A stretch of 51,231 nt of DNA from an uncultured SAR86 cluster bacterium (GTDB lineage Bacteria; Pseudomonadota; Gammaproteobacteria; Magnimaribacterales; D2472): NCBI GenBank assembly GCA_902627055.1, contig CACOHS010000008.1:1-51231 (forward strand), read 5' to 3'. A model generated the notes under the pieces. That model did not search any database. It was not told the DNA's origin and saw nothing but the letters and a program-made list of their open reading frames with translations. Shown here piece after piece: positions 18,444-21,405 of this stretch. Within the stretch, counting starts at the first letter, position 1; every line of letters starts with the position of its first letter. The translations under genes and the position numbers were made by a program.

Positions 18444-18545
18444 TGTTAAATTTTTTTTTGTAATCTTTATATATTAACACTATCAAATTCTTCAAGGTTA
18501 ACCTAAAATACAGACTTTTTTAAAGATACAGATTTCAATTTTTAT

Positions 18546-19151
18546 ATGGTAGTAGTAAGACTTGCAAAAAGCGGAGCTAAGAAAAACCCTTATTATTTTA
18601 TAACGGTTGCCGACTCTAGAAAACCTAGAGACGGAGCATTTATAGAGCGCCTTGGTTTTTTTAATCCTTCTGCAAAAGGATCTGAAGAAAGAATGAGATT
18701 CAATATTGAACGTTTAGATCACTGGATTGCTCAAGGAGCTCAACTCTCCGATAAGGTCAAAGAATTAGCTAAAGACGCAAGACTTTCTTCAGATGAGTTG
18801 CAACAAAAACTAGAAAGAAAAAAAGATAAAAGAGATAAAAAGAAGGAAGCAATTAAGGCAAAGAAAGTTGCAGAGTTAGAAGCCAAGGCTAAAGAGTCTG
18901 AAGAAGCAGAATTAGAAGAAGCTCCAGCAGAAGAAGCTGCAACCGAGGAAGCCTCAGCAGAAGAAACTGTAACCGAGGAAGCTTCAGCAGAAGAAGCTAC
19001 AACCGAGGAAGCTCCAGCAGAAGAAGCTACAACCGAGGAAGCTCCAGCAGAAGAAACTGTAACCGAGGAAGCTCCAGCAGAAGAAGCTACAACCGAGGAA
19101 GCCCCAGCAGAAGAATCTGAAGAAGAGTCTTCAGATGATGAAAAAAAATAG
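18546..19151 (+). CDS. rpsP: Ribosomal protein bS16 with a long acidic repeat tail
   Basis: Residues 1-82 are a normal bS16 ([20 protein letters not shown], then [12 protein letters not shown]), a small-subunit assembly protein. Ordinary bS16 stops near residue 82-90; here the chain runs to 201. Residues 83-120 are Lys/Arg-rich and probably helical ([17 protein letters not shown]), then residues 128-187 are six tandem copies of the 10-residue unit [10 protein letters not shown], ending in [12 protein letters not shown]. The tail is open through the same frame, with no internal stop, and leads into rimM by a 17-base overlap. First gene of rpsP-rimM-trmD-rplS. Confidence 0.95.
18927..19106 (+). 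repeat. Six tandem 30-bp repeats in rpsP
   Basis: Copies at 18927, 18957, 18987, 19017, 19047 and 19077, each 30 bases and coding for a variant of [10 protein letters not shown] (also [10 protein letters not shown] and [10 protein letters not shown]). The copies are nearly identical in DNA, with changes at a few positions, which indicates recent expansion or homogenisation by slippage or recombination while the frame was kept. Confidence 0.95.
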
Positions 19152-19669: not shown

Positions 19670-20401
19670 ATGAACATTAATGTAATTACTTTGTTTCCAG
19701 AAATTTTTGATTCCCTAAATTATGGTTTGCTTGGGAAAGCATTAGATAGAGAGGATATTAAAATTAACATATTCAATTTACGAGACCACCAATTGAACAA
19801 GCATGGCCAGATTGATGATAAGCCATATGGAGGAGGCGAGGGAATGGTTTTAATGGCAGAACCACTGGAAAATGCTATTAAAAATATACCTAGTGATAAC
19901 TTAGGGATAGTCATAAATTTATCACCACAAGGCAGAATTTTTAGTCAGAAAAAGGCAAAAGAATTATCAACGCTTAAAAACATAACAATTATATGTGGGA
20001 GGTATGAGGGAATAGATGAAAGATTGATTTCTCAATATGTTGATGATGAAATTTCTATTGGAGATTATGTGTTAAGTGGTGGTGAATTTGCTGCACTGAC
20101 CATTATCGATTCATTATCAAGATTTATTCCAGGTGTTATAGGTAATCAAAAATCAGTAGAACAAGATTCATTCAGTCATGGACTCTTGAAAGGACCAGTG
20201 TATACAAGACCTGAAACTTTTAATTCTGATGATATACCAGAAGTTCTAATATCTGGCGATCACAATAAAATAAAAGAGTGGAGAGATAATCAATCGCTTA
20301 TTAGAACTTTTGAAAGAAGGCCTGATCTTTTAAAGAATGCAAAATTAACAAAAAAACAAAAAAAACTCTTGGAAGAATTGTCATCTAAGGCTATCCTGTA
20401 G
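19670..20401 (+). CDS. trmD: tRNA (guanine-N1)-methyltransferase TrmD
   Basis: Methylates G37 of tRNAs using S-adenosylmethionine and so prevents +1 frameshifting. 243 residues with the SPOUT trefoil-knot motifs CGRYEGIDERLI and ISIGDYVLSGGEFA, plus DKPYGGGEGMVLMAEP near the N-terminus. Normal length and position in the operon between rimM and rplS. Confidence 0.97.
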   Translation: MNINVITLFPEIFDSLNYGLLGKALDREDIKINIFNLRDHQLNKHGQIDDKPYGGGEGMVLMAEPLENAIKNIPSDNLGIVINLSPQGRIFSQKKAKELSTLKNITIICGRYEGIDERLISQYVDDEISIGDYVLSGGEFAALTIIDSLSRFIPGVIGNQKSVEQDSFSHGLLKGPVYTRPETFNSDDIPEVLISGDHNKIKEWRDNQSLIRTFERRPDLLKNAKLTKKQKKLLEELSSKAIL

Positions 20402-20421: not shown

Positions 20422-21405
20422 ATGAGCGATACAAAAGAAACAAAGAAAAAAGGCTTTTTTTCTAAATTACTTGGCAGATCAGATGCTGTTGATGCTAACG
20501 CAGAACCAGAAAAACCTGAGGACTTAAAAGGATCTGCACCTATATCAGATAATGATTCTGAAACATCATCAGCAAAATCAAATACAGGACTAAAAAGCGC
20601 ATTATCTAAATCCGTGCTTGCCAAAATGAAAAAAGCAGATATCGTTGCTGCAGCAGCAGAATTAGGCATTGATCTAGATATAAAGCTTACTAAAGATAAA
20701 TTATTAGCTGCTTGGGATGCTCATTTTAATCAAGAGAGCATATCAGAGGAACCAATTGCAGAAGAAGCCCTAGAAGAGCCTATGGCGGAGGAAGTTACTG
20801 AAGAGCCAATTGCAGAAGAAGCCGTCGAAGAGCCTATGGTGGAGGAAGTTACTGAAGAGCCAATTGCAGAAGAAGCCGTTGAAGAGCCTGTGGCGGAGGA
20901 AGTTACTGAAGAGCCAATTGCAGAAGAAGCCGTCGAAGAGCCTGTGGTGGAGGAAGTTACTGAAGAGCCAATTGCAGAATCTTTGTCAGATTCTAATGAT
21001 CCATCTGAAGAAGAGTCTGATTCAGAAGCTGTTCCTGTTTCAGTGGACGAAAAATCTCCTGCAGAAATAATTAAAACCTTTGAGTCCAATCAATTAAGAG
21101 ACGACATACCATCATTTAGACCTGGAGACACTGTTGTAGTCTCTGTCAAAGTCAAAGAGGGTGAAAGAACCAGACTTCAAGCTTTTGAAGGAGTGGTAAT
21201 GAACATTAAGAATAGAGGTTTAAACTCAGCCTTTATTGTGAGAAAAATATCCAGTGGAATTGGAGTTGAAAGAACATTCCAATTACATAGCCCAATGATT
21301 GATTCTATAAAGGTTAAAAGAAAGGGCGATGTGAGGCAGGCTAAACTCTATTATTTACGCGAAAGATCTGGAAGATCTGCAAGAATAAAAGAAAGACTAG
21401 ACTAA
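20422..21405 (+). CDS. rplS: Ribosomal protein bL19 with a 213-residue N-terminal extension
   Basis: The last 114 residues (214-327, bases 21061-21402) are a complete bL19 ([50 protein letters not shown]). Ordinary bL19 is about 115 residues; here 213 residues precede it. These are: residues 1-20, basic then hydrophobic ([15 protein letters not shown]), like the N-terminus of the SRP receptor FtsY; an acidic/Ser-rich linker; a helix-loop-helix segment at 64-101 ([18 protein letters not shown], then [14 protein letters not shown]) of the Rho_N/SAP type; and Glu-rich repeats at 109-187. No ATG lies near residue 214, so the extension belongs to the gene unless it is removed after translation. 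Confidence 0.94.
20788..20982 (+). repeat. Tandem 54-bp repeats in rplS
   Basis: Three full copies at 20788, 20842 and 20896 and a partial copy at 20950. Each codes for the 18-residue unit [18 protein letters not shown] or a close variant, preceded by a diverged partial unit from 20746. The copies differ at few bases. The unit differs in length and sequence from the rpsP repeat, so the two tracts arose separately. Confidence 0.93.

Follow-up and report, generated by a model that had tools for sequence, protein, structure and literature searches.

Ribosomal protein bL19 lies at the subunit interface, remote from the exit tunnel, and the locus described here raises the question of why a SAR86 cluster bacterium should place about 214 additional residues in front of it. 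The initial annotation noted that these residues begin like the SRP receptor FtsY and proposed that they might tether ribosomes to the membrane. We examined this proposal in the window, by which we mean the whole stretch of 51,231 nucleotides analysed, and in related genomes.

A bL19 gene with a long N-terminal extension

In the window, rplS is a single open reading frame (20422..21405, forward strand) encoding a 327-residue protein in which the extension precedes a complete bL19. The Pfam profile Ribosomal_L19 (PF01245) matches residues 216-325 with an E value of 2.1e-47 over profile positions 2-111 of 111, which places the bL19 core at 21067..21396, and TIGR01024 matches residues 215-325 over profile positions 2-113 of 114; the domain is full-length by both profiles. 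The ATG start lies 20 bases past the stop codon of trmD (an open reading frame at 19670..20401, forward strand), and the rpsP-rimM-trmD-rplS gene order typical of bL19 is present; as in E. coli, ypjD lies upstream in divergent orientation.

The extension comprises two conserved islands, a variable linker and Glu-rich repeats. Along the forward strand these are a KKKGFFS[RK]L[LF] motif (residues 8-19, 20443..20478), which is a putative membrane-targeting sequence of the MinD/FtsY type, the linker (20479..20604), a SAP/HeH-like helix-loop-helix (residues 62-107, 20605..20742) and tandem repeats of a 54-base unit in 4.2 copies, located with Tandem Repeats Finder (20752..20979). A 213-residue extension with an N-terminal motif, an acidic linker, a helix-loop-helix and Glu-rich repeats is what the initial annotation had described, and both its extent and its layout were borne out. 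No other copy of the module formed by the two islands was found in the same genome at E <= 10, and scans of the extension with Pfam and NCBIfam gave chance-level matches only, such as SAP30_Sin3_bdg at E = 0.23. Translation of a separate, plain bL19 from an internal start seems unlikely: in 6 of 27 fused genes, codons -45 to -6 relative to the core motif contain no in-frame ATG, GTG or TTG, and among all candidate starts of the remaining 21 genes just one has a Shine-Dalgarno-like sequence.

Seventeen positions are invariant in the 27 aligned modules (M1, K9, F12, K68, M69, K70, K71, A72, I74, V75, A78, L85, L89, T90, K91, L94 and F102), and most of them fall inside the two islands. Among the 27 genes (351 pairs), pN/pS is 0.16 for the motif, 0.26 for the SAP-like domain, 0.25 for the leader, 0.97 for the linker and 0.12 for the core, ratios that are rough, with pS at 0.5-0.7 and near saturation. 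Constraint on the motif nearly equals that on the ribosomal core, and both islands are under purifying selection. An AlphaFold2 model based on 27 sequences (overall pLDDT 65.7, pTM 0.40) predicts helices at residues 63-68, 71-80 and 91-107, with a mean pLDDT of 87-92 over residues 61-100 and of 63 over residues 101-109, and predicts disorder (pLDDT <50) for residues 21-57. For the first 24 residues the model has a pLDDT of about 60 and three helical residues only. The helical moment of these 24 residues is 0.48, a value equalled or exceeded by 37.5% of 2,000 shuffles; the amphipathic character for which the initial annotation had proposed a check did not emerge, and by this measure the motif does not behave as a MinD/FtsY-type membrane-targeting sequence.

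Likenesses of the two conserved islands

A profile of 25 N-termini, compared with 177,635 distinct PDB sequences, matched 11 of them at E <= 10, mostly weakly, and reversed and permuted control profiles matched none in either case. The best match was BamC (0.00057), whose segment KPGFFSRLFGG (PDB 9pxg chain C) closely resembles the motif and has, to our knowledge, no membrane role. It was followed by a Heimdallarchaeota gelsolin-domain protein (0.064), whose tail KKKGFFGRLFGR (PDB 7whf chain G) is also closely similar, by MinD (6riq, KKGFLQRLFGG, 0.47), by five alpha-SNAP sequences or fusions (SFFSGLFGGSS, a loop of that protein, 0.6-1), by Fusexin1 (3.3) and by two FtsY sequences (5.5 and 5.7). 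We give weight to the likeness of the motif because the MinD, FtsY and alpha-SNAP matches are membrane-binding elements and because the control profiles were empty.

The same profile was ranked over 1,993 distinct non-bL19 open reading frames of the collected loci, 39 of them FtsY or MinD, in a set purposely enriched for FtsY. The top five consisted of E. coli MinD and four FtsY sequences, of which one is archaeal, and eight of the top 10 were FtsY or MinD; with the reversed and permuted profiles (1,907 and 1,793 open reading frames scored) neither protein appeared in the top 20. The sequence match to a MinD/FtsY-type membrane-targeting sequence is above control, and on sequence the motif also qualifies as alphaA1-like, after the N-terminal motif of FtsY. 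E. coli MinD outscored E. coli FtsY in both the PDB search and the rank test. Its C-terminal membrane-targeting sequence, KKGFLKRLFGG, is identical at 9 of 11 residues to the consensus of the relatives, KKGFFSRLFGG, and both are short basic-hydrophobic stretches at a chain end, but the MinD element is C-terminal on an ATPase and gated by dimerisation, whereas the motif here is N-terminal on a ribosomal protein. PMC6158289 reports that the FtsY helix on mCherry binds membranes and that the E. coli MinD sequence is weak alone and strong in two copies: a single copy on mCherry gave no detectable membrane binding.

For E. coli FtsY, PMC5533587 describes the first 14 residues as the alphaA1 lipid-binding motif, with both alphaA1 and alphaN1 binding lipid. 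The bL19 extension shares with this A domain a KxGFFSxL sequence followed by an acidic stretch and, if it does bind membrane, a route from ribosome to membrane. It differs in being fused to bL19, in having a SAP-like domain in place of the NG GTPase domain, and in belonging to an order in which SRP was not found. Pfam and NCBIfam scans of the window protein detected no NG domain, and its genome also lacks FtsY. Homology to FtsY over the entire extension was rejected, the likeness stopping after about 15 residues. Judged on these comparisons, the motif is a likeness of a membrane-binding motif and not FtsY homology, because E. coli MinD scores better, the resemblance is limited to some 15 residues, the second island looks like a SAP/HeH domain and the genome has no FtsY. 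The statement that the extension begins like FtsY accordingly holds for the first 12-15 residues, on the rank test and its controls, and fails as a statement of homology. As for the acidic region, which had been read as another FtsY-like sign, the tract is present and is weak evidence, because bS16 and most of the examined uS2 proteins of families f1 to f3 of the order carry acidic tails as well. In the window, the last 90 or so residues of bS16 (18546-19151) form an acidic repeat tail, encoded by repeats of 30, 60 and 90 bases.

The second island is modelled confidently by AlphaFold2, yet none of its fold matches falls below E 0.5 and its match to Ku70 is weak. Against the Ku70 SAP chain 1jjr the profile gave a whole-sequence E value of 0.011 summed over two copies, the best single copy being 3.7, and Foldseek returned 91 matches, all at E 0.5 or more, which include Rho N-termini, the SAP domain 1h1j (TM by target 0.57) and Tho1. 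None of the 27 module members matched the SAP, HeH or Rho_N families of Pfam at E <= 5. The island resembles the SAP/HeH domains of Ku70, Tho1 and the Rho N-terminus in being a helix-loop-helix of about 45 residues, and differs from them in lacking a curated profile match and in being carried by a ribosomal protein. We know of no such helix-loop-helix from FtsY. Among the f4 loci (L212 of G038, L150 and L151), uS2 of two genomes terminates in a SAP-like domain; in certain other f4 genomes this end carries basic repeats of the KPAAKKAT type.

Distribution of the module and the SRP pathway in the order

The module alignment, run against 84,980 species genomes, returned at least 590 pattern matches and at least 31 loci. 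The 31 loci listed are all SAR86 by title; the frame runs into bL19 at 26 of them and is stopped by a contig end at five. No relative was present among 388 stretches of viral contigs that fit a pattern. Within the order, 44 of 203 genomes match the module, 42 of them in family f1 and two in f4, and the two f4 matches are weak (E 1.8e-5 and 2.4e-5) and correspond to the SAP-like C-termini of uS2. The f1 modules lie in open frames of at least 238 residues in 33 genomes and in short ones, about 100 bases or less from where a contig ends, in nine; fusion to bL19 was read directly at part of the loci and elsewhere from frame length only.

The share of module carriers is given per genus for g1 only. 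Among its 26 genomes, nine have the motif and the SAP-like domain (G013 being cut), 12 have an acidic N-terminus only, two are cut by contig ends and three have no bL19 match; the 12 acidic-only genomes contain no copy of the motif or the SAP-like domain elsewhere. At the g1 loci L009-L025, motif-bearing and acidic-only forms are interleaved among close relatives. Families f2 to f4 have bL19 in 23 of 24 genomes, with frames of 116-138 residues in 22, and G038 is reported with an internal TGA. Relatives without the extension, which the initial annotation had held would refute its proposal, exist in part: 12 g1 genomes retain just an acidic N-terminus, and the sister families have plain bL19. 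On a tree of TrmD, the bL19 core and Xer, seven switches to or from the module-bearing form are required, at least four of them forced by starred branches; its 70 rows include near-duplicate genomes and loci chosen for carrying the module, whose share is thus overstated. This distribution suggests that f1 acquired the module early and then lost it several times, or else that the 5′ end of rplS has been exchanged. Given the seven changes and the 12 acidic-only genomes, the module is dispensable.

SRP is commonly described as universal among bacteria. In the genome of the window, TIGR00064 (FtsY) found no match, although all 14 control genomes were positive, and PF00448, which covers Ffh, FtsY and FlhF, gave no full match there or in 60 relatives, four of which had partial matches of 18-23 bits. 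Across the 203 genomes of the order, 14 have any PF00448 match: 13 are partial, at 18-25 bits, five of these exceeding the cut-off, and one is full (240 bits, G353). Four of the 13 partial matches were identified, as ABC (two), CobW and ParA-type ATPases. A full Ffh or FtsY match is missing from 202 of the 203 genomes. The exception, G353, was rejected as an SRP-bearing member, its FtsY (TIGR00064) lying on an 8.9-kb contig that we take to be contamination because genes beside it score above the curated thresholds of prefoldin alpha and of archaeal RecJ. This archaeal-looking FtsY (L114, 3719-5356) carries KKKGFF[AG][KR][LI] twice in its acidic A domain. With no more than 16 candidates scored in any genome, PF00448 matched 172 of 185 Gammaproteobacteria that are at least 85% complete, some of them as small as 0.4 and 1.0 Mb. 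The 13 without an SRP54-family match comprise three from this order and ten from outside it (G062, G064, G094, G101, G166, G190, G209, G212, G216 and G227), in which SRP loss is possible.

Searches for SRP RNA (RF00169, small form, stricter filters) were negative in all 60 genomes and positive in 11 of 14 controls. E. coli carries ffh between ypjD and rpsP; the corresponding gap in the window is 102 bases long (18444..18545) and has no ffh, the gene is missing from this position in the 24 of the 31 module loci that span both genes, and at five loci of f2 to f4 corC adjoins rpsP and ffh is absent. From these searches, the SRP pathway (ffh, ftsY and SRP RNA) seems to be absent from the whole order. 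YidC was present in 12 of 12 genomes, and a YidC tail serving as a substitute tether was rejected, the chains in these genomes ending without a long tail. FtsX exceeded the cut-off in none of 12 genomes, a weak result considering that it did so in 1 of 14 controls only; ftsEX may have been lost along with ftsY. Our literature search turned up no published statement that SRP is missing from SAR86. The report of the first SAR86 isolate, which has a closed genome (HIMB1674), notes that 28 of 280 marker genes are missing, 27 of them order-wide (PMC11582366); the main text contains none of the terms 'signal recognition', 'SRP', 'ffh' and 'ftsY', and the marker list in its supplement may tabulate the loss. 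The cultured Magnimaribacter probably has a plain bL19.

Possible roles of the extension

The reading that we favour, at slightly less than even confidence, is that the motif is a weak accessory tether of ribosomes, or polysomes, to the inner membrane. A long, flexible, acidic stretch would carry the N-terminus of bL19 away from the ribosome, with a short MinD/FtsY-type membrane-targeting sequence and a small SAP/HeH-like binding domain at its end. A lone copy of the motif would hold weakly to the inner membrane and the many copies presented by a polysome would hold better, which might raise the chance that translating polysomes lie near the membrane, while the SAP-like domain could contact a nucleic acid or protein partner. 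We propose action through many ribosomes because the MinD sequence binds in two copies and not detectably in one. In an SRP-less cell, such a tether would give SecYEG/YidC some additional assistance in inserting membrane proteins and would not be an obligatory replacement. Mitochondria likewise hold ribosomes at a membrane without SRP, by means of the Oxa1 C-tail, Mba1, Mdm38 and Mrx15 (PMC8321541), but those tethers are separate membrane-associated proteins that bind ribosomes, whereas here the element is an extension of a conserved ribosomal protein.

This accessory tether is based on the single open frame, conservation, selection on both islands, a likeness to membrane elements above control and the seeming absence of SRP, a loss that makes the idea more interesting. 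Several observations argue against it: the module is confined to one family while SRP is missing throughout the order, the motif is weakly predicted and has a helical moment not above shuffles, its best PDB match is BamC, bL19 sits at the subunit interface, and a single MinD sequence on mCherry did not detectably bind (PMC6158289). An essential tether is further opposed by the plain bL19 of the sister families and the acidic-only forms of g1, and the distribution of the module speaks against the tether as a general answer to SRP loss. Nor does life without SRP require one, since E. coli can bypass SRP through mRNA targeting (PMC10066597) or slowed translation (PMC7844537, PMC8299109). We consider membrane binding by the motif in some assay to be probable, by a modest degree; tethering of ribosomes or polysomes inside the cell to be nearly an even question, leaning towards doubt; and genuine compensation for the missing SRP to be unlikely. 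Each estimate was lowered a little, from fairly probable, evenly balanced and unlikely, respectively, because a single MinD sequence does not bind detectably (PMC6158289).

The main competing explanations concern acidity and nucleic acids. The extension might serve mainly to shield the basic bL19 by acidity within the same molecule or to keep it soluble, perhaps being removed after assembly, with the islands serving assembly. Its net charge is -10 to -47 in the 27 genes, against +8 to +14 for the core, the acidic tails of bS16 and uS2 fit the same pattern, and 12 of 26 g1 genomes have an acidic-only bL19; the conserved islands, however, are not acidic (the motif region is +1 to +4) and are nevertheless kept by selection, and we regard this explanation as rather unlikely. 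A less likely alternative makes the SAP-like domain the main functional part, linking ribosomes to mRNA, the nucleoid or transcription, with the motif as a secondary contact. The Ku70 match, the Foldseek matches to Rho N-termini, 1h1j and Tho1, and the two f4 genomes whose uS2 ends in a SAP-like domain point in this direction, but no module member matches the curated families, and SAP/HeH-type folds bind proteins too.

Two further explanations address the motif itself. A lysine-rich start could resemble a membrane-targeting sequence by chance, as the shortness of the motif, its unexceptional helical moment and the BamC match would allow; constraint close to that of the core and the empty reversed and permuted controls make such a coincidence improbable. 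Finally, an FtsY A domain could have been fused to bL19 upon loss of ftsY, which would explain why FtsY is among the N-terminal likenesses and why full-length FtsY is missing from this genome and nearly all of the order. This relic is the least credible of the explanations and is very improbable: the likeness ends early, E. coli MinD fits better than E. coli FtsY, 36 of 45 FtsY rows (some of them duplicates) have fewer than 80 residues ahead of the NG domain, and SRP loss probably preceded the fusion, because families with plain bL19 share it.

In a narrow literature search we found no earlier report of a membrane-targeting sequence on a ribosomal protein. The fullest form of the accessory tether is that an order of abundant, free-living marine bacteria lost the whole SRP pathway and that one family re-invented ribosome delivery on a ribosomal protein, its polysomes collecting at the membrane through many weak copies of the sequence; we consider this unlikely, although, if true, the bL19 tail would be one family's answer to the loss, anchoring the ribosome rather than the nascent chain. 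More generally, searches of this free-living order detected neither Ffh and FtsY nor SRP RNA, and one of its members has been cultured (PMC11582366), which makes membrane-protein synthesis without SRP directly testable.
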